Source: Gemmatimonadota bacterium
Lineage (GTDB): Bacteria; Gemmatimonadota; Gemmatimonadetes; Gemmatimonadales; Gemmatimonadaceae
Assembly: GCA_028287235.1 (NCBI GenBank)
Contig: JAQBQB010000023.1
Coordinates: forward strand, 1 to 64,000
DNA length: 64,000 bases
Direction of reading: 5' to 3'
Part shown: positions 5,021 to 50,320 of the stretch, piece after piece
Position numbering within the stretch: the first letter of the stretch is position 1
Layout: every line of letters starts with the position of its first letter
Position numbers and translations under genes: made by a program
Notes under the pieces: model-generated
Told to the model about the DNA's origin: nothing
Seen by the model: only the letters and a program-made list of their open reading frames with translations
The model's database searches: none

Positions 5021-5028
5021 GATGTCTC

Positions 5029-11919: not shown

Positions 11920-13061
11920 ACCGGTACCGCCGCGCGGGCCGCACTCAGGGTCTCGGTGCGCACGGTGAGCGACTCGATGTAGTCGGCATCGACGTCCACG
12001 CCGAGGCCGGGCCGGTCGCGCGGCACCTTGACCAAGCCGTCGGCGCCCATCGTCCACTCGGGGCTCACGACGTCCCGCGTCCAGTAGCGTGCGCTGGGAC
12101 TCAGGTCGCCCGGCATCGAGAAGTTGGGAAGCGACGCGAGCGCCACGTTGTACGCCCGGCCAACGCCGCTCTCGAGCATCCCGCCGCACCACACGGGAAT
12201 GCCGGCCTCCTGGCAGACGTCGTGGATCGCTTTCGACGCGGAGAACCCGCCGACGCGGCCCGGCTTGATGTTGATGATCCGCCCGCACTGGAGGGCGATC
12301 ATGTCGCGGGCGCGCGAGACGTCGATGATGGATTCGTCGAGACAGAGCGGCGTGCGTAGCTGCCGTTGCAGCTCGGCGAGCTGCAACAGCGCGTCGGCGC
12401 CGAGCGGCTGCTCGAGCATGAGCAGCTCGAACTCGTCGAGCTGGAGGAGATGCGGCGCGTCGCCGATGGAGTAGGCGGCGTTTGCGTCGGCCATGATCTC
12501 CACGTCCGGCCCCAGGGCGGCGCGCACGGCGCGCACGTACTCGACGTCCTGCCCCGGTTGAATCTTGAGCTTGACCTTGCGATAGCCCGCGGCGACGGCG
12601 GCGAGCGCACGCTCGACCAGCAACTCCGGCGAACGCTGGATCCCGAGCGAGATGCCGGTGGGCACGCGCTCGCGTGTTCCGCCGAGGACGAGCGTGAGCG
12701 GACGCTGCTCGATCTCGGCGGTCAGCCCCCAGCAGCCCATCTCGAGCGCCGCCTTGGCCATGTTGTGGCCGCGGATGTCCTGCGCGAGGAGGTCGTGGAC
12801 GACGGCGGGCCCGGTGAGCCGCCGGCCGAGCAGGCGCGGGGCGAGCCATTCGCGAATCGCGAGCCAAGCGGTATCGATCGTTTCCGGCGTGTAGTTCGGC
12901 AGCGCCGGCGCGACACACTCGCCCCACACCATGGCGCCATCGCGATCGGTAATCTCGAGGAGGAGGATGCGGCGGACGGATTCGACGCCGGACGAGATGC
13001 GGAAGGGCTCTTTGAGCGCGAGGTGGATCTCGCGAAGCGTGATACGATCGATACAGAACAT
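11916..13061 (-). CDS. menC: N-acylamino acid racemase / o-succinylbenzoate synthase family enzyme
   Basis: 381 residues, enolase superfamily. Visible catalytic elements are the KxK motif in YRKVKLKI, the metal ligands in MADANAAYS, LEQPL and LDESI, and the second catalytic Lys in NIKPGRVGG. The segment GIPVWCGGMLESGVGRA followed by NVALASLPNF is very close to what I recall of Amycolatopsis NSAR/OSBS. Members of this family are bifunctional or specialised. The menC role belongs to menaquinone synthesis, while the racemase role turns N-succinyl-D-amino acids into the L-forms. No other men gene is nearby, and the operon is full of peptide genes with a GNAT acyltransferase at its end, so the racemase role is favoured here. 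The ATG at 13061 was chosen at the domain boundary; the frame is open further upstream. It is the first gene of the operon, 127 bases from a GntR-type operator. Confidence 0.85.
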   Translation of the reverse strand: MFCIDRITLREIHLALKEPFRISSGVESVRRILLLEITDRDGAMVWGECVAPALPNYTPETIDTAWLAIREWLAPRLLGRRLTGPAVVHDLLAQDIRGHNMAKAALEMGCWGLTAEIEQRPLTLVLGGTRERVPTGISLGIQRSPELLVERALAAVAAGYRKVKLKIQPGQDVEYVRAVRAALGPDVEIMADANAAYSIGDAPHLLQLDEFELLMLEQPLGADALLQLAELQRQLRTPLCLDESIIDVSRARDMIALQCGRIINIKPGRVGGFSASKAIHDVCQEAGIPVWCGGMLESGVGRAYNVALASLPNFSMPGDLSPSARYWTRDVVSPEWTMGADGLVKVPRDRPGLGVDVDADYIESLTVRTETLSAARAAVPV

Positions 13062-14143: not shown

Positions 14144-14171
14144 TTGCACTACTTCGGTATACCAATATAGT
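14144..14171 (+). promoter_or_regulatory. Promoter with GntR-type operator in its spacer, for the tricorn gene
   Basis: A -35-like TTGCAC at 14144-14149 and a -10-like TATAGT at 14166-14171 are separated by 16 bases. The spacer contains CGGTATACCAA (14155-14165), the reverse complement of the site at 13188-13198. A repressor bound here would block the polymerase directly. The start codon of the tricorn-type protease follows 43 bases after the -10 box. Confidence 0.6.
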
Positions 14172-14214
14172 ATGCCGAGTCTGCCGTTCCCTCCGTCACC
14201 TCGGGAGTCGTCCC

Positions 14215-20023: not shown

Positions 20024-21616
20024 TCAGCTAATCGGTCCACCCCACATCGCCGCGGCAATCTCGCCGAGGGCCTGGCCAACCAGCAGCGCCGCATCGCCCG
20101 GATAGTTCGGCGGGAACGGGACGCGATTGGCGTAAATAGCAAACGCTAATCTCTTCCCGGAGCTGGTCGTCATGTAGCCCGCCAGCCCTTTGCCGGTGAC
20201 GATCGTGCGCCGGTTGAGGGGATCGAACACCGAGAACGTGCCCGTCTTGGCGAACACGTGACCGGCCGCCGGCGCCTGCGCCTGGATGTTCCAAAGCGTG
20301 CCGTCGCGCCCCAGAATCGGCAGCGCCTTGCGGAAGAGCGCCGTGTCCGGACGCGTCGCCATATAGGCGAGGTACTGCGCCATGAACGCCGGCGAGTAGA
20401 ACGCGCCCGGCGCGCCGCCCGCGCCGTCGCCTTGCGCGGCGGCCATGAGATCGAGCCCCGCACGCTGCAGGAAATCATGCTCGGCGTCGAAGCCTGCCTG
20501 CACTGCGCCGCGACCGGGCGTGTGGCCGGCGATCGCGCCGACGACGTACGGCATCATGCTGGCGTGCAGGTTCTGGCTCACCTTCAAGATGACCTTCACC
20601 GCTTCGGCCAACGGCAGCGACACGTGCTCGGCGACGCGCGTCGAATCACCGTAGCCCGTCGCGAGCCGAGCGAAGTCGACGTGGTCGCTCGCTCCGCCCT
20701 GCACCGTGATGCCGCGCTCCTTGAGCGCGGCCACGAACGCTCGCGCCGCCATCTCGGACGGGCTGTCGACGGGTACGCTCATGACGAGCGGCGCGCCGCC
20801 CGCGGCGTACGACCCCGTGAGCCGCACCGTCACCACACCGCTCGCTGAATCTCGCGTGATCATGCGCCGGAGCGCCGGTGTGGATCCCGGCGCACCGGTC
20901 TTCAGCTCGTTGGTGAGTCGAAACAGTCCGAGGTCGGGCGACACTCGCACGCTCACTGCATCACCCGCCTTCGCGCCCGGCGCGATGAGCAGATCCACGA
21001 CATTGTCGTTGACGACGATCGGCGAGATGACGACCCCCGTGCCCAACTCCCGCTCGCCCTGCGGGAACAGACTGACGTCGACGAGCACGCGTCCGTCGAC
21101 CTGCTTGATCCCCTTCGCCGCGACCTGCCCCGCGAGCTCGCGCAGCACCGCGAGCGGATCGCCGAGTGCCTTGGCGACGGAGTCGCCGCGTCCGGCGTAC
21201 GAGTGATCTTCGTTCGTGAACCCGAGCGTGTCGCCGAACGCGCGGCCGGAGAGATTCGCGTCGCCGCTGCCGACGAGCACGAGATCCCCCTTCAACACGC
21301 CGCCCGTGATCGGACCGGTGCGATACACCGGTGTATGAAACCGGTAATCGGCGCCAAGCAGACCGAGCGCGGTGCCGGTGGTGAGCAGCTTCGTCGTCGA
21401 GCCGGGAGTGAAGAGCTGCTCGGCGTTCAAGCCGTACACCATCTTCTTGGCGTCGAGATCGTACGCCGCCACGCCGAAGGTGGCGTGGATCAGCTCGGGG
21501 CGGCTTTGGATTTCGGCGATCTTCGCCGACAGCGCCTGGTTCTGCGCCGGCAGCGTCTGAACGGCGGCGAGCGCGATCGTCGCGCCGAACGCGACACGTC
21601 GGGTGAAGTACGTCAT
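20024..21616 (-). CDS. dacB: PBP4-type D-alanyl-D-alanine carboxypeptidase/endopeptidase (S13)
   Basis: 530 residues with a signal peptide (ATIALAAVQTLPAQ). All three penicillin-binding motifs are present: SxxK in PGSTTK (Ser73, Lys76), SxN in KVSQNLHA, and KTG in FAKTGTFS. The long insertion between the first two motifs is typical of S13 enzymes. These remove the terminal D-Ala from stem peptides and cut D-Ala-meso-DAP cross-links. The ATG overlaps the stop of the D-aminoacylase family gene (TGATG), making this the last of eight genes in the minus-strand operon. Housekeeping PBP4 is usually encoded elsewhere; its position beside SusC/SusD and VanX suggests a catabolic role on captured peptidoglycan. 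Confidence 0.9.
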   Translation of the reverse strand: MTYFTRRVAFGATIALAAVQTLPAQNQALSAKIAEIQSRPELIHATFGVAAYDLDAKKMVYGLNAEQLFTPGSTTKLLTTGTALGLLGADYRFHTPVYRTGPITGGVLKGDLVLVGSGDANLSGRAFGDTLGFTNEDHSYAGRGDSVAKALGDPLAVLRELAGQVAAKGIKQVDGRVLVDVSLFPQGERELGTGVVISPIVVNDNVVDLLIAPGAKAGDAVSVRVSPDLGLFRLTNELKTGAPGSTPALRRMITRDSASGVVTVRLTGSYAAGGAPLVMSVPVDSPSEMAARAFVAALKERGITVQGGASDHVDFARLATGYGDSTRVAEHVSLPLAEAVKVILKVSQNLHASMMPYVVGAIAGHTPGRGAVQAGFDAEHDFLQRAGLDLMAAAQGDGAGGAPGAFYSPAFMAQYLAYMATRPDTALFRKALPILGRDGTLWNIQAQAPAAGHVFAKTGTFSVFDPLNRRTIVTGKGLAGYMTTSSGKRLAFAIYANRVPFPPNYPGDAALLVGQALGEIAAAMWGGPIS

Positions 21617-23250
21617 CACATCGCTCCCGGCCCGCGGAGGGCCCGTCCGGCTTTCGCGCCGGTGTGTTTGCCGTGGTCGATCGTCACGACGCCGTTGACG
21701 AGCACCCACTCGATGCCCGTCGGGAATTCCATCGGCTTCTCGTACGTCGCCATGTCCTGCAGTTTGTCGAAATCGAAGATCGTGACGTCGGCCCAGTTCC
21801 CCACCGCGATGGTTCCACGGTTGGCGAGCCGCATACGCGTGGCGGGCCAGCCGGTCATCTTGCGGATGGCCTCGGGAAGGGTGAGCACGTGCCGCTCCTT
21901 CACGTACTTGGCGATCACGCGCGGAAAATTTCCGAAGCTGCGCGGGTGCGGCAGCCCGGTCTCGTCGGGCACGCCAATCTGCGCGACCGCCCCGGCGTCG
22001 CTGCCGATGCTCGTCCATGGAAAGCGCAGTGCCGTCTCGATGTCCGCCTCGCCCATCATGTGATAGATCGCCATGACGCGGCCGCGGCCCTGCGACACCA
22101 GGTCCCAGGCGGCGTCCTGCGGCTCCTTGCCCATCTCCTTCGCGATCTGCGTGATGTTCTTCTGCTCGTACTTCGCGTTGGCCGGGTTGCGTGCGTTGAC
22201 GAGCACCACACCGTCCCACCCGCCCGCGGCATCGATGATGTTCCACCAACCGGGCGAGCCGGTCGTGATCTCGCTCTTGAGGCGTGCGCGAATCGCCGGA
22301 TTCGCCAACCGCGCCTTGAGCGAATCGGTCCCACCCTCGTGTGCCCAGCTCGGGATGGTCGCTTCGAGCCCAGTGCCGCCCGCCGTGTAGACGTAGAGAT
22401 CCGCGGCAACGTCGACGCCGCGCGCCCGCGCCGCGTCGACCGTCTTGCCCACGGAGTCCATGAGGATTCCCCAACTGGGCCGGTCGCCCACCTTGAGATG
22501 GAACACCTCGACCTGCGCGCCCGAGCCTTCGCCGACGGCAATGGCTTCTCTGACTGCGTCGACGACCTCCTTTCCTTCGCCGCGAATGTGGCTCGCGTAC
22601 GTGCCGCCGTATGCCGCCGCGGCCTTGGCGACCTCCACCAGCTCGGCCGTGGTGCTGTAGCTCGACGGCGGATAGATGAGCGCCGTCGTCATACCCATCG
22701 CGCCGCCGCGCATCGCGGTGTCCATGATCGCGCGCATCCGCGCCAGCTCGGGCGCCGTCGGCGCGCGTGCCGATTGGCCGAGCACGGCAACGCGTGCCTG
22801 CGTCTCGCTGAAGTAGCTGCCGAAGTTGATGCTGATGCCGCTCTTCTCGAGGTTGTCGAAGTACTCGTGAACGCGCGCGGCGGGCACCGGAGTGCCGCCC
22901 TCGCCGCCGATCGCCGTCGTCACGCCTTCCTGCAGCTTGTTCTCGGCGCGTCCGTTGCGCGGCAGCACCGAGCCCGATTGGTCCATCATGTCGATCCAAC
23001 CCGGGCTCACGTACTTGCCCTTCGCGTCGATTTCCTGTTTGCCGCGCGCGGCGATCTTCCCGATCTTGGCGAAGCGTCCGTCGCGAATTCCCACGTCGGC
23101 GAGAATCCACGGATTCCCTTCTCCGTCGAGCACGCGGCCGTTGCGGATCACCACGTCGTAGGTCGAGTCGGCGCGCGGAGCCTGCGCCGCGGCGGAGAGT
23201 GCGGCGCCGCCGATCAGAGCGAGCGATGACGCGAGAGTGCAGACACGCAT
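21616..23250 (-). CDS. D-aminoacylase / N-acyl-D-amino-acid deacylase family amidohydrolase
   Basis: 544 residues with a signal peptide (LIGGAALSAAAQ). The layout is that of D-aminoacylases: a beta-sandwich start YDVVIRNGRVLDGEGNP, then PGWIDMMDQSG, VTTAIGGEGGTP, YASHIRGEG, VFHLKVG and IGSDAGAV, closing with NWADVTIFD. The family hydrolyses N-acyl-D-amino acids, and some members release D-residues from peptides. Two metal features differ from the classical enzyme. The first HxH after PG-ID is replaced by MDQ, and the usual Cys ligand is a Glu in GGEGG. The later two His and the Asp are kept. It is probably a single-metal subgroup. Being exported, it would act on periplasmic D-substrates. Confidence 0.83.
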   Translation of the reverse strand: MRVCTLASSLALIGGAALSAAAQAPRADSTYDVVIRNGRVLDGEGNPWILADVGIRDGRFAKIGKIAARGKQEIDAKGKYVSPGWIDMMDQSGSVLPRNGRAENKLQEGVTTAIGGEGGTPVPAARVHEYFDNLEKSGISINFGSYFSETQARVAVLGQSARAPTAPELARMRAIMDTAMRGGAMGMTTALIYPPSSYSTTAELVEVAKAAAAYGGTYASHIRGEGKEVVDAVREAIAVGEGSGAQVEVFHLKVGDRPSWGILMDSVGKTVDAARARGVDVAADLYVYTAGGTGLEATIPSWAHEGGTDSLKARLANPAIRARLKSEITTGSPGWWNIIDAAGGWDGVVLVNARNPANAKYEQKNITQIAKEMGKEPQDAAWDLVSQGRGRVMAIYHMMGEADIETALRFPWTSIGSDAGAVAQIGVPDETGLPHPRSFGNFPRVIAKYVKERHVLTLPEAIRKMTGWPATRMRLANRGTIAVGNWADVTIFDFDKLQDMATYEKPMEFPTGIEWVLVNGVVTIDHGKHTGAKAGRALRGPGAM

Positions 23251-23260
23251 GTGGATGATC

Positions 23261-24841
23261 TCAGGGTGAGGACTGTGAAGCGCCGACGCGCTTGAACTCG
23301 TCGACGTCTTCGTTGCGCAGGGCGGCGGGCGTGAGCGACTGCCAGAGCTTGAGCGACGACACCTGGCCGACGGGATTGACGACGAACGTCACGAGGCCCG
23401 TGCCCTCGCGGCGGTCGCGCCACGTGATCTTGTAGCTGTCGTTCGCCCAGTGCTCGAGGTCGCCGGTGAATCCCGAGCCGAAGTGCAGCACTTGATGGCC
23501 GCCCTCCGCCGCGACGTGCACGTCGCCATACATCTCGTTGGTGTACTGTCCAACGAAATGCTCCGGCGACACGGAGGACCGCGTGTCCTTCGGGCGCGCC
23601 GCGTCGACCAGCTTCGCGGCGGCAGCCTGTGCGGCCTCCTGCGCCCTTGTCTGCGCGAGCATGATGCCGCTCCAGTCGCGCGCCGGCGCGCCGAGGTAGG
23701 CGTCGACCACCCGCCGTGCGATTGCGGCGAACGTGTTGTTGTGCCCCTCGGTGTTCGTGAGGATCACGATGCCGAGCCGCCGCTCGGGAATCAGCGTCAC
23801 CTGCGAGAGCATGCCGTCGATGCCGCCGGTGTGCGACAATACCTTGACGCCAAGGTAATCGTACATCCCGATGCCGAGCCCATACGCGTGAAAGTGCGTC
23901 GAGGGCGAGAGGGAGTCGTCGGCGCTGGGAACGATCGTCTGCGGCGATTCGATCTCGCGCAGCGTGGCCGGCTTGATGAGCTGGGTCGTTCCCACGCGTC
24001 CGTTGGCCAGCAGGAAACGCAGCCACTGCGCCATGTCCAGCACGTTCGAGTTGATCGACCCGGCCGGTCCAATGTTGTCGATATTCCGCCAGGGAATCGG
24101 CGTCGCCGCTGCCCCGTCCGATAGGTGCGGCGAGGCGAGGTTCGTCTGCCCGGCGAGCGCGCGCACGGTCGTGCTGCTCAACGTCATGCCGAGCGGGCGG
24201 AAGATCCGCTGCGTGACGAGGCTGTCCCAGCTCGTCCCGCCGGCCGCGGCCGCCGCTTCGCCGGCCGTCATGACCATGACGTTCTGGTAGCCGTACTGCG
24301 AGCGGAAGCTGCTGTTCGGCTTCAGGAACCGAATGCGCCGGATGATCTCGGCGCGATCGAACGGGGACGCGTACCAGAGCATGTCGCCCCGGCGTCCGAG
24401 GCCGCTCCGGTGTGATAAGAGATCTCGTATCGTCATCTCTCGCGTGACGTACGGATCGTACATCTGGAAGCCCGGGAGAAATTTCGTCGCGGGATCGTCC
24501 CACTTCATGCGGCCGGCGTCGACCATCATGCCCGCGACGGTCGAGGTGAAGAATTTCGAGTTCGAGCCGATCGCGAACAGCGTGTGAGCGTCGACCGGCG
24601 CCGGCTTCCCTGCTTCGCGAACACCGAACCCCTTGGCGTACACCACCGAATTGTCTTTCACGATGGCGATCGCGAGCCCGGCGATTCCCCACGTTTTGAC
24701 TGCGTCCTGGATGTAGGCGTCCAGGCCGGCGAGCGGCACCGGTGCCGCCGACGCCTGCTGAGCAAGCGCCGGAGCCCCCACCGCCATGAAGGCGGTGAGG
24801 GCCAGGTATCCGTGCAACGTCCGTAAACCGCGGCGCTGCAT
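23261..24841 (-). CDS. Exported S12 serine hydrolase (beta-lactamase/DD-peptidase fold)
   Basis: 526 residues, signal peptide ending near ALAQQ. S12 motifs are SxxK in GSNSK (Ser93, Lys96), Tyr-x-Asn in YGYQN, and HTGG replacing KTG. Residues from about 400 form a C-terminal beta domain of the DUF3471 kind (VGQYTNEMYGDVHV, then strand-rich sequence). The fold includes DD-peptidases, D-aminopeptidases, esterases and class C beta-lactamases, so the reaction cannot be fixed; in this operon a D-peptidase is most likely. Start five bases after the SusD stop, end ten bases before the D-aminoacylase gene. It is a paralogue of the gene at 31629-33128, which shares SFRS-x-x-YQNVM. Confidence 0.85.
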   Translation of the reverse strand: MQRRGLRTLHGYLALTAFMAVGAPALAQQASAAPVPLAGLDAYIQDAVKTWGIAGLAIAIVKDNSVVYAKGFGVREAGKPAPVDAHTLFAIGSNSKFFTSTVAGMMVDAGRMKWDDPATKFLPGFQMYDPYVTREMTIRDLLSHRSGLGRRGDMLWYASPFDRAEIIRRIRFLKPNSSFRSQYGYQNVMVMTAGEAAAAAGGTSWDSLVTQRIFRPLGMTLSSTTVRALAGQTNLASPHLSDGAAATPIPWRNIDNIGPAGSINSNVLDMAQWLRFLLANGRVGTTQLIKPATLREIESPQTIVPSADDSLSPSTHFHAYGLGIGMYDYLGVKVLSHTGGIDGMLSQVTLIPERRLGIVILTNTEGHNNTFAAIARRVVDAYLGAPARDWSGIMLAQTRAQEAAQAAAAKLVDAARPKDTRSSVSPEHFVGQYTNEMYGDVHVAAEGGHQVLHFGSGFTGDLEHWANDSYKITWRDRREGTGLVTFVVNPVGQVSSLKLWQSLTPAALRNEDVDEFKRVGASQSSP

Positions 24842-24846
24842 CTGTG

Positions 24847-26127
24847 CTAGGTGATGCTCGGATTGTTGAACCGTTCCACGTCCGGCAATGGGAGGCAGGT
24901 CGTGTTGCCGTACGTGCCACCCACTCGCGGGTAGGTGGTGCCGATCGCCGGCACGAGCGTCAGGCTGAACCGCTCGATGTCGTAGTTGCGGAACCCTTCG
25001 GCGAACAACACACGCCGGCGCTCGTCGATCACGAGGTTCTTGATCGACGCGGCATCGGTGCCGCCGGTGTACGGCTTGAGCGATACCGTGGCGCGCATCG
25101 CATTGATGATCGTCACGGCACTCGCGCCACCCTGCGCCTCGGCGAGGATCAACTGCGCCTCTTCGTACCGCGCCAGGGGAAGCGGGATCGCGTCGCCCGC
25201 GGCCGTCGTCGCCGCCGAAAACTTCTTGGGCACGGAGATGACGCTCTTCGAGTCGGCCGGACGAACCGCGGTCACGACGACCGCCGACCGAGGATCGGCC
25301 TCGCCGTTCTCGGTCAGAAGATTCAGCGACACCGGCTCGACCGTGTAGTTGCCGGTCTGCTGCGTGACGGCGAACACGCGGTTGTACCGCCGATTGTCCG
25401 CGGCGTCCGTGTTCGAGTTATAGACGAAGCCCTTCGGAACGAGCTGCGCATCGGCGATCGCGCCGGCCGAGTTGCCCTGGTAGAGTCGCATCCGCGCACG
25501 TCCGACGTACGCCGCGGTGACGACGTTCGTGAGGCCGGCGGTCGTACCGAACGTGATCGCGTCCGTGAAGCGTTTCTCGGCGAGCGCGAACATGCCCTTC
25601 TGATCGACGGCCGGACCGAGGTCGAAGGCCGCCTGGCACATCGACATGCCCAACATTCCGTAGGCGAACCCGTCGTACAGGCTTGCCTGCGCGAGCAGCG
25701 CCGTCCGATTCGGCACCTGCGCGTCGCTCCACGCGGTGAGCTTGTTGATGGCGTTCTCGTTGGAGAAGCGCGCGGTGGACAACGGCGTGTAGATCCCGGG
25801 GCCCTGGTTGCTCGTGCAACCGCTGGTGCCGTAGATGCCGTTGGTCTGGGTGTTGGCGTCGCGGCGATCGTACGGCCATTGCGCGGCGCCCAGTTGCGAG
25901 TCCGCCAGATCGTCGGAGATGATGCCTTCGACGACGACGGCCGCGCCGATGGCGCATTCGAAGTCTCCGATGGCGCTGTTCACCATCAGCGTCGCGCTGG
26001 TGGGTTGATCGAAGATCCCCACGGGCACGCTGTTCGGCGACGTGACGTCGAGATATCGGCTCGTGCTACAGGCGGCGAGGACGACCGCGCCTGCCGCGAC
26101 GGCGACTTTATTTGAGAGTCTCATCAT
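24847..26127 (-). CDS. RagB/SusD-family outer-membrane lipoprotein (second copy)
   Basis: 426 residues from the ATG at 26127 (a second ATG follows directly). The lipobox is VLAAC (Cys20). SusD hallmarks are the helix SARFSNENAINKLTAWSDAQ and the C-terminal DERRRVLFAEGFRNYDIERF with YGNTTCLPLPDVERFNNP. The gene follows the SusC partner after 20 bases. It is alignable by eye with the SusD at 6228-7502, so the two systems arose by duplication, but the middle parts diverge, which suggests different ligands. Surface binding of D-amino-acid-containing peptides is inferred from the operon only. Confidence 0.9.
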   Translation of the reverse strand: MMRLSNKVAVAAGAVVLAACSTSRYLDVTSPNSVPVGIFDQPTSATLMVNSAIGDFECAIGAAVVVEGIISDDLADSQLGAAQWPYDRRDANTQTNGIYGTSGCTSNQGPGIYTPLSTARFSNENAINKLTAWSDAQVPNRTALLAQASLYDGFAYGMLGMSMCQAAFDLGPAVDQKGMFALAEKRFTDAITFGTTAGLTNVVTAAYVGRARMRLYQGNSAGAIADAQLVPKGFVYNSNTDAADNRRYNRVFAVTQQTGNYTVEPVSLNLLTENGEADPRSAVVVTAVRPADSKSVISVPKKFSAATTAAGDAIPLPLARYEEAQLILAEAQGGASAVTIINAMRATVSLKPYTGGTDAASIKNLVIDERRRVLFAEGFRNYDIERFSLTLVPAIGTTYPRVGGTYGNTTCLPLPDVERFNNPSIT

Positions 26128-26147
26128 TTGAGTCCGTATGGTTGGTT

Positions 26148-29100
26148 TTAGTAATTCACACGAACGGTGAACACGAACGAGGCCATCTGCGGATACTCGG
26201 CCTGGTCGGTGAACGAGGAGCTGCCGGAGACGAACTGGCTTTCCGGGTCGAGGCCGGTGTACGGCGTCCAGGTGTGGAGGTTCCGACCCGACGCCGTGAG
26301 CACGAGGCCGTGCGCGTTGATCCGGCTCGCGAAGCGGTCCGGCACGTCGTACGACAGCGAGATCTCGCGCAGCTTGGCGTAGTGCGCATCACGAATCACG
26401 AAATCGCGGAACGTGGAGTTCTGGTACTGCGCCAGCTGGATTGGATCGGTGTTGGCCGGCTGCACCACCTCGAGACAGGTGAGGAACACCTGGCAGCGGA
26501 TGCGGAGATTGTTGTCCAGCCGCTTGAAGCCCGTCGCGTAGTCGATCATCCCGTAGATGCGGATGTTGTTGAAGACGCGAATCGTATTGGTCCATGACCC
26601 TTCCGCGGCCGGAATCGTCCGTCCGAGGTAGACTTTCGGGGCCTGGATGATGCCCGCTGCGTTGAAACACGGCATCGAGCCGCCGGCGCCGTTGTCGCAG
26701 GTGATGCTGGTCGCCTTGTGCGTCGTCGGATCGACGGTGGCGGAGAGCACGTGGTAGGAGAACCACGACTGCGGCGCGTACCCGATGCGATGCGACGTCG
26801 AGCCAAGGTCGATCGTCGTGTCCTTGCCGTTCAACCGTTGGATCTTCGCGCTCGTCGTTCCAACGTTGAAGTTCATGTCCCAACCGTAGCTCCTCCGGTT
26901 CAGGAGCTGCGCCTTGAGTCCCACCTCGACGCCTTGCTTCATGATCTGGCCGGCGTTGAAGAACTGCGTGCTTGCGCCGAACCCGCTCGACGGTGCCACG
27001 TTGCGCGAGAGGATCGCGTCGTGCGATACGTCATGGTAATACGTGAAATCGATGCCGAACCGGTCGCTGAACATGGCCGACTCGAAGCCGAGCTCCGTGC
27101 CGAGCACACGCTCCGGCTTGAGGTCGGGGTTGCCGAAAGTGCTCGGCGTGAGCACGGCCTGGCCGCCGGGGCCGGCCACCGGTGACAGCGTGCGCAGCGC
27201 GGTGTTGTAACCGGGCTGCTGGCCCGAGCCACCGTACGCGCCGCGGAGTCGCAGGCTGTTCAGGAATGACGGCATGTGGCGCTGGACCATCGGGGCTTCG
27301 CTCGCCACCCACGAGAGGCTCGCCTTCGGATAGGTGACCCACTTCACCTGGCTGCCGAACGCGCTGTTGTTGTCGACGCGCGCCGCACCGGTGAGGAAGA
27401 GCTGGTCGTGCCAGCCGACTTCCTCCTGCGCGAAGAATCCGAGGGTGTTGTTCTGCGTGTTGTTCGAGTTCGCCGGCTGCTTGAGACCGGCCGACGAGAT
27501 CGTTTGAAGGCCCGGCGCCGGAAAGTGATCGCCCTCGGCCGACAGGAAGGTGTTGTAGTTCGTGTAGTACTGGGCGCCGAACGACGTCTTCGACGTGGTC
27601 GTCGAGGTCAGGTTGAAGTTCGCCGAACCCGCGTAGTCGTAGGTGTTGTAGAACGCCTGGTGGTGCTGCTCGTAGCGATATCCGTCGAAGTTGGTGCCGG
27701 CGAAGAACGCGAGCGTGTCGTTCGTGAGGTAGGGCTCGAACTGCACGTCGCCCTCGAGCGTGTAGTCGGTACCCACCGCCACGCGGTTCGACAGCCAGGT
27801 GAACGGGTTGTAGCGCAGCGTGATGCTGCCGGTGAAGCGGTTGAGATCCTGCCAGTATTGCGTGGAGCGGTAAGCCTCGGGCGGTGCGCTGTTGAAGCCG
27901 CGCCCCCATCCGCACCCCTTCGCCGAGCTCGCGGTACAGAACTGCGCGAGGTTGGCCGGGTTCGAGTACAACGATCCCCACAGGCTACCACCGCAGCCGG
28001 CTTCGCAGCTCAGGTTCGTGCGGCTCTTCACGTAGCCGACGCTCGACTCGAGCGAGAACTTGTCGCTCGGCGTGACCGAAAGGTTCGTGCGCGCGCCCTG
28101 CTGGATGCGCTCGTTCGCGTAGTCGACGCCCTGGTTGTCGTTCCACTCGCCGGAGGCGAAGAAACGGAACAACGGCGTTCCACCGCTCACGTTCGCCGCG
28201 TAGTTGTGGATGCCGCCGTCGCGGAAGAGCGGCGTGCCGCGAGCCGCTTCGGTCTTCACGACGTTCACGCTGTACAACTGCTTGTCGGCGGGGTTGATCC
28301 AGTAGTTGGTTGGAATGCGGTTTTCCGCATCCATGAACCAGTTCGAGCCTTGCTTCACCGTGAACGCGTACTTCGTCGCGCCCGCGGCGCCCTTCTTCGT
28401 GATGATGTTGATCACGCCGCGCGCCGCCTCGGTGCCGTAGAGCGTGGAGGCTGCCGGTCCCTTGAGCACCTCGATGTTCTCGATCTCTTCCGGATCGAAG
28501 TCATTGAGGCGCGAGATGACGCCGGAGCTGAACGCCTGCACCGTGATGCCCGTTCCCGTCTGGTTGTCGACGCGAACGCCGTCCACATAAATGAGGGGGT
28601 TGCTCGACAGCGAGAACGTGCCGACGCCGCGCACACGAACCTGCGAGCCCGCGCCCACCTGTCCCGTGCCCGGCAATATCGCGACGCCCGGCGTGCGGCC
28701 ATTGATCAGGCCTTCGACGCTCGGTACCGCCATCTTCGACATGACGTCGACGGCGTCGACGTTGGCGACCGACGTACCGATCGCGCGTTTTTGCTCGCCG
28801 CCGGCGGTGCCGGTCACGACCATCTCATTCAGCTCGAGCGCGCGCTCGGACAGCGTGATGCGCACGTCGGTCGCGCCGACGCGAACGCTCTGCGAGTCCG
28901 GACGAAAGCCGAGGATTCTCGCATGGAGCACGACCTGCGTTCCAGTGACACCGGTGAGACGAAAGCGGCCGCTCGCGTCGGTCACGGCGGCGTGGCCCGG
29001 TTGGCCTCCCACCGTGATCTGCGCATTCGGCAGCGCCCGCTGCGAACCCGACACGACGACCGTTCCAGCGATGACATCCTGTGCGGATAGTCGCTGCGGC

Positions 29101-29168
29101 ATCGTGAGGAGCAGCGCGATCATCGAGAACGCTGTCCAACACGCGCGATTCCTTGCAACGCTTTTCAT
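26148..29168 (-). CDS. SusC/RagA-family TonB-dependent outer-membrane transporter (second copy)
   Basis: 1006 residues from the ATG at 29168, with GGAGG seven bases upstream; the frame is open further back but lies in the neighbouring gene. After the signal peptide (SMIALLLTMPQRLSAQ) come a carboxypeptidase-regulatory-like domain, the segment LNEMVVTGT, and a plug with PLIYVDGVRVDN and EIENIEVLKGPAASTLYGTEAA. The barrel contains two Cys pairs in the region SCEAGCGGSLWG and CTASSAKGCGWG, and ends FVFTVRVNY with the expected C-terminal aromatic. Its start overlaps the stop of the S12-VanX fusion gene (ATGA), so substrate cleavage and import are translationally linked. Confidence 0.92.
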   Translation of the reverse strand: MKSVARNRACWTAFSMIALLLTMPQRLSAQDVIAGTVVVSGSQRALPNAQITVGGQPGHAAVTDASGRFRLTGVTGTQVVLHARILGFRPDSQSVRVGATDVRITLSERALELNEMVVTGTAGGEQKRAIGTSVANVDAVDVMSKMAVPSVEGLINGRTPGVAILPGTGQVGAGSQVRVRGVGTFSLSSNPLIYVDGVRVDNQTGTGITVQAFSSGVISRLNDFDPEEIENIEVLKGPAASTLYGTEAARGVINIITKKGAAGATKYAFTVKQGSNWFMDAENRIPTNYWINPADKQLYSVNVVKTEAARGTPLFRDGGIHNYAANVSGGTPLFRFFASGEWNDNQGVDYANERIQQGARTNLSVTPSDKFSLESSVGYVKSRTNLSCEAGCGGSLWGSLYSNPANLAQFCTASSAKGCGWGRGFNSAPPEAYRSTQYWQDLNRFTGSITLRYNPFTWLSNRVAVGTDYTLEGDVQFEPYLTNDTLAFFAGTNFDGYRYEQHHQAFYNTYDYAGSANFNLTSTTTSKTSFGAQYYTNYNTFLSAEGDHFPAPGLQTISSAGLKQPANSNNTQNNTLGFFAQEEVGWHDQLFLTGAARVDNNSAFGSQVKWVTYPKASLSWVASEAPMVQRHMPSFLNSLRLRGAYGGSGQQPGYNTALRTLSPVAGPGGQAVLTPSTFGNPDLKPERVLGTELGFESAMFSDRFGIDFTYYHDVSHDAILSRNVAPSSGFGASTQFFNAGQIMKQGVEVGLKAQLLNRRSYGWDMNFNVGTTSAKIQRLNGKDTTIDLGSTSHRIGYAPQSWFSYHVLSATVDPTTHKATSITCDNGAGGSMPCFNAAGIIQAPKVYLGRTIPAAEGSWTNTIRVFNNIRIYGMIDYATGFKRLDNNLRIRCQVFLTCLEVVQPANTDPIQLAQYQNSTFRDFVIRDAHYAKLREISLSYDVPDRFASRINAHGLVLTASGRNLHTWTPYTGLDPESQFVSGSSSFTDQAEYPQMASFVFTVRVNY

Positions 29169-31627
29169 AGTGCGCCTCCACGTGGGGATTGTGCCTGCAC
29201 CGACAACTGCTCGAAAGTGAGGTTTCCGATCGGGTAACTGCGCCAGTCCTGATAGTCGAAGTGCCACCATTCCGCCTCGTAAACGTTGAAGCCCTGTGCT
29301 TCCATGGCGTGACGGAGAAAATCGCGGTGCCAACGCTGCAGCGACGTCGCCCCGGGATAGATCGGAAAGGACCGATCCGTCATCTCGTCATATCCACCCG
29401 GCATGTTGATTGGCTTGCCGGTCGCCAGATCGTACAGCGTGAGGTCCACCGCGCACCCGCGGTTGTGTCGCGAGCCCTGCGACGGATCGGCCACGAACAC
29501 GTGCTTGTCCGGCGGCGTGCCGTCCCAGAACATCTTCGTCACGTACCATGGGCGATACGCGTCGTGGATCAGCAGTCCGTAGCCGAGCTTCCGCAGCTCG
29601 GCCGAGGCGCGCACGACCGCCTCCGCCGCCGGTCGCTGCATGAATGCGTGCGACGACGTGTAGAATGGCGTGCCCATGAAGTTGTTTGCCGTCGCGTAGC
29701 GGATGTCGTACTTGATCGTGGGATCGAGCCCGCGCAGCTCGACGAGATCCGGCGTCCGCAGCGGCGGCTCCTTGGGCGGCGTCGACGCGAGCGCCTCTTT
29801 CCGCAGTACCGCCGGATCGCGCACGGCCTTGATGCGATAGTTCACCGCATCGTTGTCGCCCGGCAGCGGACGGCGCTTGAACGCCACCGTCGCCGCGACC
29901 GCCGCGGTCGCCTTGCCGTCGGGCCCGCGGCGGAAGACAATTTCTTGTCCGTCGTACAACCCCGACGCCGGAAAGCGATAGACGTCGCGCGAGACGCGCT
30001 CGAGCGGATACTCGAAGAACCACTCGATCAGCGCGTTGAGCTTTCCGTCCTTCTCGCGGATGTACAAAATGTCGTGGTCCCACCCGTACTCGCCGACGAG
30101 CGACGCGAATTCGCTCGACGCGGCGGCCGGCCTGGATGCCACCACCGGCACGATGCGGGCGTCGGGCGTCGGCTCACGCGTCAGGGTATCGCGCCCCACC
30201 ACGATCCGTCTGCCGCCGAGCAAACGGACGCGCTGCCCATACGCGAGCCGGTCGTCCACGATGAGCTCCTCCGGCCCGCCCGAGGCTAGCGTCACTCCGC
30301 GCTCGGCCGACGGCACGCGCAAGTCGCCGCGAAAGCCGCCGCGTCCGGGGATGAGCGACAGACGTCCCTCGAACTCCTCGAGGTCCACCGCGTTCGTGGC
30401 GCTGGAGTATCGTCCCATCAGCGCCAGCGCTCTGGCCGGAGCGAGCGGCGACGTCGTGTCGATCGCGGCGATCGGCGTGGCGGCGCGTGCGTCCAACATC
30501 AGCCGCAGCGCGGCGGCGCCGATGTGCTCTGTCACCGCGTTGACGCCGTCGAGCGTGGCCGTCACGACGACGCCGAGCGAATCGTCGGGCAACGCCAACA
30601 GTTGAGTGGCAAACCCATAGATCGCGCCGTTGTGCCCCACGGTGCGATGTCCGTTCATCTCTCCGATGTCGAACCCGATGCCGAAGCCGCGCGTCGCGTT
30701 CGGCGCGGCAAACTGCGGCGTCCACATCGAGTCGAGCGTCGCCTTGGCGAGCACGCGCTCGCCACCCGGCGCGACGCCGCCGGCGAACAGCACTTCCAGG
30801 AAACGTCCGAGATCGAGCACCGTGCTGTACATGCTGCCGCACGGTCCCATGCCGAGCTGGAAGGTCGGCGCGTCGAAGCGGCGGCCGTCCAGCGTCCACA
30901 TGCTCGCCTTCGCGAGGCGCGCCTGGATTTCCGGCAGCGGCCGGAACGCGCTGTGGTCGAGGCCCATCGGCGCGAGCACGGCACGCTCGAGATACGGATA
31001 GAACGACTCCTTCTGCGTCCGCTCGAGCACTTCACCGAGCACGGCGATCCCGGCGTTCGAGTACTTGGCGTGCGTCCCGGGCTTGTAGACGAGCGTCGTG
31101 TTGTTCAGGCTCGCGACGGTGGCGGCGAGCGACGGCGCTGTATCGTCGAAGTAGTTGCCCACCGGCGGCTCGCGCGTGAGGCCGGCGCGGTGCGAGGTCA
31201 GCTCGCGAATCGTGATCTCGCCGCCGAATGGGTTCTTCGGATGGAACTCGGGGAGGTATCGCTGTATTGGTGCGTCTAGGTCGAGTGCGTGCCGCTCGAC
31301 CAGCCGCATGATGCCGACGTCGGTGAACAGCTTGGACACCGATCCCACGCGATACACGGTGGATGCCGACGCGGGCACGCCCTTGGCCGAATCGGCCCAG
31401 CCAAAGCCGCGCGCCCAGACGACGCGCTGGCCCGCGACGAGCGAGATCGAGATCGCCGGAATCCCCTTCTGAGAACGCTCATGCTCCACGAAGGCCGTGA
31501 GCGCGCGGGCCACGTCGGCGTACTTCGCGTCGGCACGCACGGAATCCTGCGCCCCCGCCGGCGGCGCGATGCCGAGCACCGCGCCGCACCACGCCGCACA
31601 TCCGATCGACACGCGCCGAAAAGTCAT
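29165..31627 (-). CDS. Fusion of S12 serine hydrolase and VanX-type D-Ala-D-Ala dipeptidase
   Basis: 820 residues with a signal peptide (CGAVLGIAPPAGAQ). Residues about 35-400 are an S12 domain with SxxK in GSVSK (Ser96, Lys99), Tyr-Ser-Asn (189-191) and GHNG in place of KTG. A beta-rich linker follows (about 410-620). The C-terminus is a complete M15D/VanX domain: DAYRP with the transition-state Arg, the zinc motif SRHNRGCAVD (His721, Asp728), and EAEWWHF (Glu786, His789). VanX cleaves D-Ala-D-Ala. Stand-alone VanX serves vancomycin resistance or, as DdpX, D-Ala-D-Ala use. No VanH/VanA/VanRS is nearby, so a catabolic role is favoured. The ATG is one base after the upstream stop (TGAGATG), with GGGAG as ribosome site. 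Confidence 0.9.
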   Translation of the reverse strand: MTFRRVSIGCAAWCGAVLGIAPPAGAQDSVRADAKYADVARALTAFVEHERSQKGIPAISISLVAGQRVVWARGFGWADSAKGVPASASTVYRVGSVSKLFTDVGIMRLVERHALDLDAPIQRYLPEFHPKNPFGGEITIRELTSHRAGLTREPPVGNYFDDTAPSLAATVASLNNTTLVYKPGTHAKYSNAGIAVLGEVLERTQKESFYPYLERAVLAPMGLDHSAFRPLPEIQARLAKASMWTLDGRRFDAPTFQLGMGPCGSMYSTVLDLGRFLEVLFAGGVAPGGERVLAKATLDSMWTPQFAAPNATRGFGIGFDIGEMNGHRTVGHNGAIYGFATQLLALPDDSLGVVVTATLDGVNAVTEHIGAAALRLMLDARAATPIAAIDTTSPLAPARALALMGRYSSATNAVDLEEFEGRLSLIPGRGGFRGDLRVPSAERGVTLASGGPEELIVDDRLAYGQRVRLLGGRRIVVGRDTLTREPTPDARIVPVVASRPAAASSEFASLVGEYGWDHDILYIREKDGKLNALIEWFFEYPLERVSRDVYRFPASGLYDGQEIVFRRGPDGKATAAVAATVAFKRRPLPGDNDAVNYRIKAVRDPAVLRKEALASTPPKEPPLRTPDLVELRGLDPTIKYDIRYATANNFMGTPFYTSSHAFMQRPAAEAVVRASAELRKLGYGLLIHDAYRPWYVTKMFWDGTPPDKHVFVADPSQGSRHNRGCAVDLTLYDLATGKPINMPGGYDEMTDRSFPIYPGATSLQRWHRDFLRHAMEAQGFNVYEAEWWHFDYQDWRSYPIGNLTFEQLSVQAQSPRGGAL

Positions 31628-31628
31628 C

Positions 31629-33128
31629 TCACTCCCGCCGGTTCGTTGCCCTGGTCCGCGCGAACGCGATGCCCAGGAGTTGCACTGACGATATGCCGCC
31701 TGTACCATCGGGGCGGAAGGTCAGTGGAGTGGCCGGCCGCGAGGGATCGGTGCTCACGGTTCGAAAGGTCTCGTATTCCCAGGGCTCGAGGTCTTGCACG
31801 GGCTCGTTCACGATCTGCGCTTTGAGAGCGCCGTTCGCGACGGTCACCGTCACCGTGCCGTACGCCGAGTCGACATAGGTGCCCGCGTACCGCTCGAGCG
31901 GGAGCGACGGGCGAGCCTGGGTGTTTCGCGCCACCGCCCGGCCCTGATTGGCCCGCGCGGCGTCGGTGAACAGTGTATGCAAATCTGCGCTCCAATCGCG
32001 CGACGGCCCGCCGGTGTACAGATCGAATACGCTGTACATCAGCCCGTGCCGCAGCTCGGCGTGATCGAGATTCTCGAGCACGTACACGCCGACCCGCTCG
32101 TTCGGCATGAGCCCGATGATCGCGCACATGCCGTCGATGCTGCCGGTGTGCATCCACACCATGCGCTCGCGGTAGTCCTGGAGAAACCAGCCCAGCCCGT
32201 AGCTGAAGAAGTCCGGCTTCGCGAGCCGCAGCGCCGGGTACTCGCTCATCGGTGCGCGAATCTGCGGCGACACGAGCTCGCGGAAGGTGGCGGGCGCGAT
32301 CAGCCGCTTCGTGCCGACGCGGCCGCTGTCGAGCATGAAGCGCATCCACTTCGACATGTCCGTCACGCTCGACCACACCGAGCCGGCCGGAGCGATGTCG
32401 TCGGTGGTGCGCACCGGCACGACGCGCACGGTGTCGCGCACGAGCGCGTGCGGCACGGCGACGTTCTCCTTGCCGGCAATCGCCGAGACGAGCGGCTCGG
32501 TCTCCGTCATGCCGAGCGGCGCGAAGATGCGCGTGCGCATGAACGCGTCCCACGACATGCCCGATGCGCGCTCGACGATCGTGCCGCCGATGGCGTACAT
32601 GACGTTCTGGTAGTCCCAGTTCGACCGGAACGACGTTTCGGGCTTCACGTAGCGCAGCCGGTGGATCATCTCCGGCATCGAGTAGCGCCAGCGGAACCAG
32701 AGCATGTCGGTGCTCCCCAACCCGGTGCGGTGGGTGAGCAGGTCGCGAATCGTCAGCTCGTGCGACGCATACTCGTCGGCGAGCTGCAGGTCGGGCACGT
32801 AATCGGCGACGTGGTCGTCCCACCGCAACTTCCCTTCGTCGATCAACATCGCCAGCGCCGCCGCGGTCATCGCTTTCGTCGTCGAGCCGATGGCGAAGCG
32901 CGTGTGCGCGTCGGCGCGGCGTTGCGTTCCCGTCTCGAGCACGCCGTAACCTTTGGCGAAGACGAGCGAGTCATCCTTCACGACGGCGATCGCCAGCGCG
33001 GGCACGCGCCAGTCGGTGGCCGCCTTGGCGACGTAGCGGTCGAACGCCGTCCAGTCTGGGGACGCCGGACGTTGCGCGGCCAGCAGCCCGGGCAACACGA
33101 CCGTCATCGCCAGCGTGGCGCGTCTCAC
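31629..33128 (-). CDS. Exported S12 serine hydrolase (paralogue)
   Basis: 499 residues, GTG start at 33128 overlapping the upstream stop (GTGA). Signal peptide about 1-19 (LAMTVVLPGLLAAQ). Motifs are SxxK in GSTTK (Ser82, Lys85), Tyr-Gln-Asn (173-175) and HTGS in place of KTG. The last 110 residues form a beta domain like that of the gene at 23261-24841 (YAGTYVDSAYGTVTVTV). The two proteins share many segments, including DMLW, SFRS-x-x-YQNVM and PLGMT, so they are duplicates within one operon. Likely a periplasmic D-peptidase or esterase; the exact reaction is not deducible. Confidence 0.85.
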   Translation of the reverse strand: MRRATLAMTVVLPGLLAAQRPASPDWTAFDRYVAKAATDWRVPALAIAVVKDDSLVFAKGYGVLETGTQRRADAHTRFAIGSTTKAMTAAALAMLIDEGKLRWDDHVADYVPDLQLADEYASHELTIRDLLTHRTGLGSTDMLWFRWRYSMPEMIHRLRYVKPETSFRSNWDYQNVMYAIGGTIVERASGMSWDAFMRTRIFAPLGMTETEPLVSAIAGKENVAVPHALVRDTVRVVPVRTTDDIAPAGSVWSSVTDMSKWMRFMLDSGRVGTKRLIAPATFRELVSPQIRAPMSEYPALRLAKPDFFSYGLGWFLQDYRERMVWMHTGSIDGMCAIIGLMPNERVGVYVLENLDHAELRHGLMYSVFDLYTGGPSRDWSADLHTLFTDAARANQGRAVARNTQARPSLPLERYAGTYVDSAYGTVTVTVANGALKAQIVNEPVQDLEPWEYETFRTVSTDPSRPATPLTFRPDGTGGISSVQLLGIAFARTRATNRRE

Positions 33129-35011
33129 TTTCCACCCCGCACGACGGTCACCTGCACGTACGACGCGGCGTCGCGCGAGCGAAACACCTTGTGCGTCTGC
33201 GCCTTGAAGTCCGTGTCCTTCGCCTCGAAGATGTTCGGCACGAAGGTCTGCGGATTGCGATCGATCAGCGGGAACCAGCTGCTCTGCACCTGCACCATGA
33301 TCCGGTGCCCCTTCTTGAACTTGTAGTCCTGGGTGTGCAGGTCGACGACGTACTGATCGACGTGGTTCGGCGTGATCGGCACCGGCTTCTCGAAGCTCTG
33401 CCGAAAACGTCCGCGCAGCACGTCGTTCGCGACCATGAGCTCATACCCACTCATCTTGGGATTCGCCTCGTACGCGTCGGGGTAGACGTCGATCACCTTC
33501 ACCACCCAGTCGGCGTCCGAGCCCGTGGTCGACGCGAAGAGATGCGCCGTCACGTCGCCGGCGATCACGATGTCGGAATCGAGCGGTGCGGTCTGCCAGC
33601 TCACGACGTCGGGCCGGCCCTGCACGAATCGTTGGTCGTCGGCGAGCCAGCGCGACCAAGTCGAGCCGGCCTCCCACGTCGGCTTGATCGGCCGCGCGCG
33701 GTAGGGCACCGGGTTCGCCGGATCGGACAGGTACGCGTCGAACGCGTTCGCCGACCGGTCGGCCGGCGCGGTGAACGAAAGGCGGTGGTCGCCCTGGAGA
33801 TACAGGCGCCGCGGGGTGGCGTTCGCGCTTGGACGCAGCGGCCAGCTGTCGCGCCGCTCCCAGGTGTTGGAGCCCGCCTCGAACGTGGTCGCTTCAGGAA
33901 GCGTCAGCTTGCCGATGCCCTTGAGCCAGTACGCGAACCAAGGGGCCTCGATGTTCTGCCGGAAGTCAGGAGCCGTCGCGCTGCCGAAGTCGACCGGGCC
34001 GAGCGTTTTGCCGCTCGCGCCGCTCCATCCGCCGTGATTCCATGGACCCACGACGAGATAGTTCAGGTGCTTCGTGTCGTGCTTTTCGAGCAGCTCGTAG
34101 ATCTTGATCGGGCCGTAGAAATCTTCCTGGTCCCACCAGCCGGCCACGCTGAGCGTGGGCACGGTCACGTGCGTGACGTACGGCGCGACCGCCTGTCGCT
34201 GCCAGAACGCGTCGTAGCTCGCATGCGTCGCGAAGTCGTTCCAACTCGGAATCTTGTCGTGCAGGTACTTCTCGTTGACGTGCGCGAGCGATCCGAGCTT
34301 GAGGTACCAGTCGTACGTATCGGAGTCGCCGAAGGCGAAGGGCGTTTGCTCCTTGTTCGTTTCCATCATCACGGCGTACTCGAAGCCGTAGCTCAAGCGG
34401 AACGCGCCGTTGTGATGGAAGTCGTCGCCGATGAACATGTCGGCCGGCGACGCCTGCGGGGACACGGCCTTGAGCGCGGGGTGCGGGTCGAGCATCGCGA
34501 CCACGGTGAGCCACCCGGGATACGACACGCCCATCATGCCGACGCGCCCGTTGTTGCGCGGCACGTTCTTGAGCAGCCACTCGATCGAGTCGTAGGTGTC
34601 GGTCGCTTCGTCGATCGCTTTGGGGTCGCGCATCTGGCGCATCTGCCGGAGCATCACGAACTGCCCCTCGGATTTGAACCGCCCGCGAATGTCCTGGAAC
34701 ACGAAGATGTAGCCGTCGCGCGCCATCTCGGCGTACGCCCCGGCGAAGCTCCGTTCGCCGCCTTCGATGCCGTAGGGCGTGCGGACCATGACGATCGGGA
34801 GATTGCCGGCGAAGCCCTTCGGTACAAAGATATTTGTGTGCAGCTTCACGCCGTCGCGCATCGACACCATGGCCTCCGTCTTGTCGAACGACGGGATCGG
34901 CGGCGTACCTTCGGTTGGCTGCTGGGCGTGCGCGGCGCCGGCGCCGAGCGTGGCCGCGGCGCACAGTACGACGGCGAACAGTCGCATATGGAGTCGGATC
35001 GGCGGTGTCAT
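33125..35011 (-). CDS. Alpha-amino-acid ester hydrolase-like CocE/NonD family enzyme
   Basis: 628 residues with signal peptide (LFAVVLCAAATLGAGAAHAQ); start at the ATG at 35011, with 34987 possible. The S15/CocE domain shows the nucleophile in GVSYPG (Ser163), His326 in GPWNHGGWS, and the C-terminal jelly-roll domain. It also carries the features that set alpha-amino-acid ester hydrolases apart: GDDFHHNGAF (Asp196/197) and WDQEDFYG (Glu296, Asp297), the carboxylate cluster that grips the substrate's free alpha-amino group. Characterised enzymes hydrolyse alpha-amino esters and the amide side chain of ampicillin or cephalexin. Natural substrates are unclear. It is the first gene of the eight-gene operon, behind a sigma70-like promoter. 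Confidence 0.87.
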   Translation of the reverse strand: MTPPIRLHMRLFAVVLCAAATLGAGAAHAQQPTEGTPPIPSFDKTEAMVSMRDGVKLHTNIFVPKGFAGNLPIVMVRTPYGIEGGERSFAGAYAEMARDGYIFVFQDIRGRFKSEGQFVMLRQMRQMRDPKAIDEATDTYDSIEWLLKNVPRNNGRVGMMGVSYPGWLTVVAMLDPHPALKAVSPQASPADMFIGDDFHHNGAFRLSYGFEYAVMMETNKEQTPFAFGDSDTYDWYLKLGSLAHVNEKYLHDKIPSWNDFATHASYDAFWQRQAVAPYVTHVTVPTLSVAGWWDQEDFYGPIKIYELLEKHDTKHLNYLVVGPWNHGGWSGASGKTLGPVDFGSATAPDFRQNIEAPWFAYWLKGIGKLTLPEATTFEAGSNTWERRDSWPLRPSANATPRRLYLQGDHRLSFTAPADRSANAFDAYLSDPANPVPYRARPIKPTWEAGSTWSRWLADDQRFVQGRPDVVSWQTAPLDSDIVIAGDVTAHLFASTTGSDADWVVKVIDVYPDAYEANPKMSGYELMVANDVLRGRFRQSFEKPVPITPNHVDQYVVDLHTQDYKFKKGHRIMVQVQSSWFPLIDRNPQTFVPNIFEAKDTDFKAQTHKVFRSRDAASYVQVTVVRGGK

Positions 35012-35061: not shown

Positions 35062-35090
35062 ATTGTACACCACAATGGTCCACCACGCAA
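35062..35090 (-). promoter_or_regulatory. Sigma70-like promoter for the eight-gene SusC/SusD operon
   Basis: On the minus strand TTGCGT (35090-35085) and TACAAT (35067-35062) are separated by exactly 17 bases. Transcription would begin near 35055, about 45 bases before the first start codon at 35011. This is the best consensus match I found in the window and explains expression of 35011-20024 as a unit. Confidence 0.6.
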
Positions 35091-50319: not shown

Positions 50320-50320
50320 C

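Follow-up and report, generated by a model that had tools for sequence, protein, structure and literature searches.

What does a SusC/SusD operon import when the enzymes encoded with it belong mostly to families that act on D-residues? This question is raised by an operon in a 64,000-nucleotide stretch of DNA from a Gemmatimonadota bacterium (positions 1 to 64,000 of contig JAQBQB010000023.1; hereafter the window), in which SusC and SusD are encoded together with three S12 domains, a VanX-type M15 domain, the S13 peptidase PBP4, a relative of D-aminoacylase and an alpha-amino acid ester hydrolase (AEH). The original prediction was a locus for D-amino-acid peptides or peptidoglycan fragments. 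We observed gene content, gene order and association among relatives, and from these we infer transport, catalysis and substrate: the operon probably serves the uptake and degradation of peptides containing D-amino acids, followed by passage through a permease and D-to-L inversion. Import and breakdown of D-residue peptides with subsequent inversion is the simplest account of the locus.

The eight genes form one packed set on the minus strand (35011-20024; Table 1), as had been predicted. The gaps are -4 bp between AEH and the first S12 gene (S12a), 1 bp between S12a and the S12-M15 gene, -4 bp between the latter and SusC, 20 bp between SusC and SusD, 5 bp between SusD and S12c, 10 bp between S12c and the D-aminoacylase relative, and -1 bp between this gene and PBP4. 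A 1028-amino-acid open reading frame over PBP4 starts out of frame, and the true PBP4 gene is 21616-20024. Domains were assigned by Pfam and NCBIfam profiles, similarity to PDB chains and motif inspection, and the gene families claimed earlier were recovered by profiles, with SxxK, YxN and HxG kept in all three S12 domains. The VanX-type dipeptidase was found as a domain; however, it is not a separate protein but the C-terminal part of an 820-amino-acid S12-M15 fusion. The claim of one good promoter fared less well: a promoter-like sequence with 8/12 matches was seen by eye ahead of AEH, but a sigma-70 scan with the stricter threshold of 9/12 reported none there.

Like VanX and DdpX (M15D), the M15 domain has conserved metal and catalytic residues (SxHxxGxAxD, ExWH and an Arg aligned to VanX 1r44, invariant in 14 aligned sequences), whereas it differs from them in being fused behind an S12 domain and in scoring under both NCBIfam equivalog cut-offs (145 of 176 bits for DdpX and 98 of 320 for VanX). 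PBP4 keeps STTK73, SQN347 and KTG457, and the top NCBIfam match of S12a was AmpH, below its cut-off. AEH enzymes are diagnosed by the Ser motif GxSYxG plus a carboxylate cluster; the window protein has GVSYPG (serine), GDD and WDQED (acidic cluster), and it scored 531 bits to 4pf1 and 505 bits to AEH 1mpx, four of its five best PDB matches being named AEH and the top one S15/CocE/NonD. The D-aminoacylase relative aligns to 1rjp in two stretches spanning most of its length and, like the D-aminoacylases 1m7j/1rjp, keeps H-x-R, F-H-x-K and GSD (His, His and Asp ligands). Because signal peptides were seen by eye in the hydrolases other than the upstream M16 protease, and a lipobox in SusD, these proteins are predicted to work outside the cytoplasm, with less certainty for the D-aminoacylase relative.

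The S12 enzymes share the serine beta-lactamase fold, AEH enzymes are noted for their beta-lactam ester chemistry, and some 9 kb upstream of the operon there is a class A beta-lactamase-like gene (44241-45146, minus strand; PF13354, 181 bits), so that a locus for defence against, or catabolism of, beta-lactam or other D-residue antibiotics could be imagined. However, the S12 proteins score far under the cut-offs of the listed beta-lactamase models, nothing in the locus is specific to beta-lactam uptake, and the permease and D-to-L cassette described below suggest nutrition. We consider this explanation very unlikely, and the predicted use of beta-lactams gained no specific support beyond AEH and the class A beta-lactamase-like gene. 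Another amino acid permease gene (46330-47670) adjoins the latter.

S12 enzymes or amidohydrolases alone prove little, because the genome (5.73 Mb) has 22 S12 profile matches (the operon's three counted) and 51 to Amidohydro_3; it also has two matches to M15 and 13 to SusD, 12 of the latter above cut-off, and some of the matches in these four counts are weak or partial pieces. The telling part is M15, S13 and SusC/SusD together, and three S12 domains, two D-Ala-peptidase families and a SusC/SusD pair within 15 kb, with genes that overlap or almost touch, are unlikely to reflect random assortment.

Sus-type polysaccharide utilisation loci likewise encode degradative enzymes in the same operon as SusC/SusD; unlike these, the window operon has hydrolases mostly of D-residue families, and no glycan-active enzyme was found by Pfam among its eight genes and the adjacent M16 gene. 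S12 and CocE enzymes are catalytically broad, and S9, M16 and tricorn-type S41 peptidases are encoded around the operon. The SusD protein exceeds the PF07980 cut-off, its lipobox Cys20 is invariant in 12 aligned SusDs, and its AlphaFold2 model (predicted local distance difference test, pLDDT, 71.9) matches SusD structures that include RagB as well as glycan SusDs. SusC/SusD-type transporters can serve peptides, the RagAB pair of Porphyromonas taking up peptides and not glycans (PMC11817032); however, the passages on RagAB in that paper do not mention D-peptidases with it, and the window SusD is shorter and weakly similar. These points could suit a RagAB-like pair for L-peptides, with the S12 and CocE enzymes as esterases or L-peptidases. 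Against such an ordinary peptide or ester locus, which we regard as improbable, VanX-type M15 and S13 are narrow D,D-families, and they recur with a particular SusC clade and with the GNAT and racemase genes considered next.

A second operon on the minus strand (13061-1967), outside the coordinates of the original prediction, encodes an N-acylamino acid racemase/OSBS-like enzyme (here called NSAR; OSBS, o-succinylbenzoate synthase), a permease, a second SusC and SusD, an S9 peptidase and a GNAT-fold acyltransferase, in this order, and points to a more general use of D-amino acids. NSAR scored 313 bits to N-acylamino acid racemase and 110 and 105 bits to the dipeptide epimerases 3jva and 1jpm, and it keeps the enolase-superfamily Lys pair and metal ligands (KVK, DAN, EQP, LDES and NIK). 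The GNAT enzyme was looked for on the logic of the NSAR pathway; its Pfam match was weak, and the predicted fold then agreed (AlphaFold2 model, pLDDT 82.8; 576 PDB matches at E<=0.001, the 50 best nearly all named acetyltransferases).

At a cut-off of E<=1e-20, 93/149 genomes of the class had GNAT homologues. Among 20 of the GNAT loci listed, 13 had NSAR in the same orientation at most 1.4 kb away, and an M20 enzyme of the aminoacylase type was found in 13, on the same strand in 12. GNAT-NSAR-M20 is a recurring cassette, sometimes joined to SusC/SusD: L247 reads, in one direction, GNAT-NSAR-M20-permease-D-aminoacylase relative-SusC-SusD, and L251, likewise in one direction, reads GNAT-SusC-SusD-AEH-S12. 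The bacterium's own genome has GNAT-NSAR-M20 on contig C4 (L246) and, on C6 (L130), AEH and GNAT on one strand, divergent from AEH-SusC-SusD on the other. In three genomes of one genus (L258, L260 and L261), GNAT has no NSAR but is close to S12, an M19 dipeptidase and a D-aminoacylase relative.

Geobacillus kaustophilus reportedly has an N-succinylamino acid racemase pathway from D- to L-amino acids, and the GNAT, NSAR/OSBS and M20 genes that form one cassette in relatives and on C4 resemble it; unlike in that pathway, the cassette is met here with SusC/SusD, a permease and putative secreted D-peptidases. The DgcN-DgcA pathway, with its N-acylated intermediate and enolase-superfamily racemase, also turns a D-amino acid into the L form. 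It serves D-glutamate use, as described in passages of PMC10845958. The window racemase scores 103 bits against the DgcA model cut-off of 400, and a GNAT stands in the place of DgcN.

The nature of the racemase also bears on peptidoglycan as the substrate. Murein recycling through an L-Ala-D/L-Glu epimerase was suspected from the MR_MLE neighbour and was dropped, since the enzyme is NSAR/OSBS-like by its scores. Scavenging of peptidoglycan peptides, in which SusC/SusD would import muropeptides, PBP4 and S12 would remove D-Ala and M15 would split D-Ala-D-Ala, is compatible with a PBP4 above its cut-off and intact VanX-type residues. In some Acidobacteriota, M15 lies beside relatives of RpiR/SIS-type regulators and of gamma-glutamyltransferase (identified from one member per cluster by Pfam), and relatives of M55 D-aminopeptidase occur near M15 in four loci, as they do in 1/20 random loci. 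However, neither of the murein-recycling markers LdcA and L-Ala-D/L-Glu epimerase is in the locus: S66/LdcA is encoded only on contigs C17 and C1, and its scores set the racemase apart from dipeptide epimerases. Among the Pfam-scanned genes of the window (not every gene was scanned), no muramoyl amidase, NlpC/P60 or glycosidase was found. Moreover, members of the NSAR, AEH and D-aminoacylase families are mainly known to act on different residues, often hydrophobic ones; passages of PMC8142540 list N-succinyl-Phe/Phg and N-acetyl-Met. A dedicated peptidoglycan-peptide locus is therefore unlikely, and this part of the original prediction was not supported. Peptidoglycan is one possible source of D-peptides, with nothing in the locus specific to it.

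Conservation of the D-peptide gene set was assessed among relatives by two routes, M15 and SusC. In neighbour analyses, clusters of raw open reading frames held shadow frames, and only clusters with a Pfam-supported member, or the predicted GNAT fold, were used. At E<=1e-20, 130/295 genomes of the class had M15 homologues; the 80 top matches listed by a capped search included Acidobacteriota, Planctomycetota, Bacteroidota and others. The 89 class loci examined were the better-scoring ones, including the genome's own second M15 and excluding the window. SusD occurred in 10/49 of these with an S12-M15 fusion and in 0/40 without it; when SusD was scored by profile and the window was counted too, the figures were 11/51 and 1/39. 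Several partial sets were recovered. L068 reads SusC-SusD-S12-S12-D-aminoacylase relative-S12-M15 in one direction; L033/L034 have SusC/SusD divergent from S12-M15-PBP4; L199 has SusC/SusD, several S12, M15, PBP4 and a second SusC/SusD; and L039, L045, L047, L063, L145 and L194 share the order permease-SusC-SusD-S12-M15. At G148:C4, SusC, GNAT and AEH lie within 10 kb, and 10-30 kb further on come S12, M15 and a relative of D-aminoacylase that shares 81% identity with the one in the window. The Acidobacteriota loci L140, L142, L144, L152 and L176 have M15, PBP4 and the D-aminoacylase relative together on one strand, without SusC/SusD in the stretches of 6 to 21 kb. Relatives of RpiR/SIS-type regulators adjoin M15 in L140, L144, L149, L160 and L176, near relatives of ketol-acid reductoisomerase, and PBP4 then follows in four of these five loci but was not seen in L160. 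Thus the cluster is conserved in part, although most relatives lack the link to SusC/SusD; an operon of mostly D-residue-family enzymes with SusC/SusD is nevertheless upheld by profiles, motifs and this partial conservation.

Plain co-occurrence within 20-kb loci was tried as proof of linkage and dropped, as it was not significant against random loci. We therefore relied on tight same-strand neighbours and on a SusC-anchored test. A same-strand partner no more than 1 kb from M15 was present in 35/161 loci (15/89 class loci and 20/72 named loci, i.e., 80 less 8 duplicates) compared to 6/120 random anchors (p=4e-5; all linkage p values ignore relatedness). The random control was small, with only 20 of 40 planned loci, each giving three points on both strands, and 3 of its 6 matches came from L267, on an already known D-island.

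In a FastTree tree, both window SusCs fell into one 18-member clade (local SH-like support 97) together with 13/15 SusCs of the M15 loci, the two of the GNAT loci and that of L130, separate from 11 further SusCs encoded in the bacterium's own genome. Sampling for this tree was biased, most clade members having been found via M15 or GNAT. This bias is lessened in a score-based sample of the five best SusCs per genome (150 SusCs in 62/149 genomes), in which M15, GNAT or AEH lay within 10 kb of 14/48 SusCs scoring 590 bits or more and of 4/102 scoring below (p=2.8e-5), or of 11/45 vs 4/102 without the three cases of the bacterium's own genome (p=4e-4). The 590-bit split, set after the tree was seen, equals what the second window SusC scored; positions were hand-transcribed, and the partners counted were M15, GNAT and AEH, leaving out NSAR, S12, PBP4 and the D-aminoacylase relative.

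Several observations weigh against a system for D-peptides. The modeled SusD appears to fit peptide and glycan SusDs alike and would not discriminate between ligands, and the S12 and CocE families include esterases for ordinary substrates. D-aminoacylases bind metal through HxH, Cys, His, His and Asp, whereas the window relative lacks HxH (MDQ instead) and the Cys ligand; HxH is kept in 6/42 aligned relatives (from the window and loci, a few of them duplicates), and HxH together with Cys only in L191. NCBIfam names the racemase MenC/OSBS (308 bits, cut-off 201), and by sequence it could be MenC; no M20 was found beside it, the genome's own copy being on C4. Within about 20 kb, SusD was not enriched (10/89 class M15 loci vs 1/20 random loci, p=0.36), and the D-aminoacylase relative was found in 7/89 vs 3/20. 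Because these counts are low, and PBP4 occurred in only 2/89 and AEH in 0/89 of the same loci, the full gene combination of the window is rare; SusC/SusD with VanX, S13 and D-aminoacylase within 20 kb was recovered as partial combinations, without significant enrichment. Among close SusC relatives, 34/48 had no M15, GNAT or AEH inside 10 kb. Finally, the label "SusC/SusD in locus" switches 8 times over the 162 rows of the M15 tree, with at least 5 switches forced by well-supported branches; the link between SusC/SusD and M15 has therefore been gained or lost repeatedly.

In the mechanism that we propose for the use of D-peptides, SusD would bind peptides with D-residues and SusC would carry them over the outer membrane. 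Judging from their families and intact catalytic motifs, the S12 hydrolases, S12-M15, PBP4 and AEH would act outside the cytoplasm and cleave bonds formed by D-Ala and other D-residues, perhaps joined by the D-aminoacylase relative. The permease would then bring free D-amino acids through the inner membrane into the cytoplasm, where, as the cassette suggests, GNAT would acylate them, NSAR would racemise the products and M20, encoded elsewhere in the genome, would deacylate these to L-amino acids. That a Gemmatimonadota SusC/SusD clade dedicated to D-peptides forms, with secreted D,D-peptidases and GNAT-NSAR-M20, a complete system from outer membrane to cytoplasm is a tentative extension, which we hold to be possible but short of probable.

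Table 1. Coordinates of the operon, its upstream region and the neighbouring operon in the window.
Feature	Coordinates	Strand	Evidence and remarks
AEH (alpha-amino acid ester hydrolase family, S15/CocE)	33125..35011	-	628 amino acids; signal peptide by eye; PF02129/PF08530, TIGR00976
S12 hydrolase + DUF3471 (S12a)	31629..33128	-	PF00144 215 bits, PF11954; STTK/YQN/HTG
S12-M15 fusion	29165..31627	-	C-terminal VanX/DdpX-type domain; PF00144 220 bits, PF01427 116 bits
SusC, TonB-linked outer membrane receptor	26148..29168	-	1006 amino acids; TIGR04056 411 bits, cut-off 368
SusD, short	24847..26127	-	426 amino acids; LAAC lipobox by eye; PF07980 32 bits, cut-off 23
S12 hydrolase + DUF3471 (S12c)	23261..24841	-	SNSK/YQN/HTG; profile matches
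D-aminoacylase-family amidohydrolase without HxH metal motif	21616..23250	-	228 bits to D-aminoacylase 1rjp
PBP4/S13 D-Ala-D-Ala carboxypeptidase/endopeptidase	20024..21616	-	530 amino acids; PF02113 224 bits; TIGR00666 175 bits, cut-off 108
Promoter-like TTGCGT-17-TACAAT	35062..35090	-	8/12 matches, by eye, ahead of AEH
M16 zinc protease	35223..37889	-	PF05193/PF00675; HVLEH; 211 bp upstream of AEH; operon membership uncertain
N-acylamino acid racemase/OSBS-like (NSAR)	11916..13061	-	MR_MLE enzyme; similarity and motifs
Amino acid permease	10558..11919	-	PF13520 177 bits
Second SusC, same clade as operon SusC	7506..10517	-	tree, profile
Second SusD	6228..7502	-	PF07980 66 bits
S9 peptidase, start uncertain	2831..5668	-	PF00326 110 bits
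GNAT-fold acyltransferase	1967..2827	-	Pfam E 0.077 only; no NCBIfam match; AlphaFold2 fold

Other genes of the window were also recorded. A tricorn-type S41 protease gene with PD40 repeats (14050-17487, plus strand) lies between the two SusC/SusD operons, on the opposite strand. A sortase-domain gene (PF04203; 43004-43633, minus strand) occurs in this genome with TonB-linked outer membrane receptors. At 48327-49484 (plus strand), a patatin-like phospholipase domain is followed in the same frame by a C-terminal ferredoxin-like Fer4 match, and at 49591-50337 (minus strand) there is a RES-domain protein (PF08808), of a family known from toxin-antitoxin pairs. At 52757-55840 (plus strand), a VirJ-family gene stands directly before an LPG_synthase_C (MprF/LpiA-type) gene, presumably a lipid aminoacylation pair.

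To our knowledge, there are few descriptions of bacterial import and digestion of D-peptides, in contrast to free D-amino acids, and in open-licence PubMed Central searches no listed title or abstract described a SusC/SusD locus for D-peptides. We regard the locus as a new variant of SusC/SusD utilisation loci. Its food may be fragments of the cell wall, peptides resembling antibiotics, or aged protein. D-amino-acid material, chiefly from bacterial cell walls, is an important part of long-lived oceanic dissolved organic matter, according to passages of PMC10845958. If our interpretation is correct, a SusC/SusD type for D-peptides would extend these transporters past glycans and L-peptides, and the locus would provide marker genes by which the turnover of D-peptides could be followed in little-cultured phyla.

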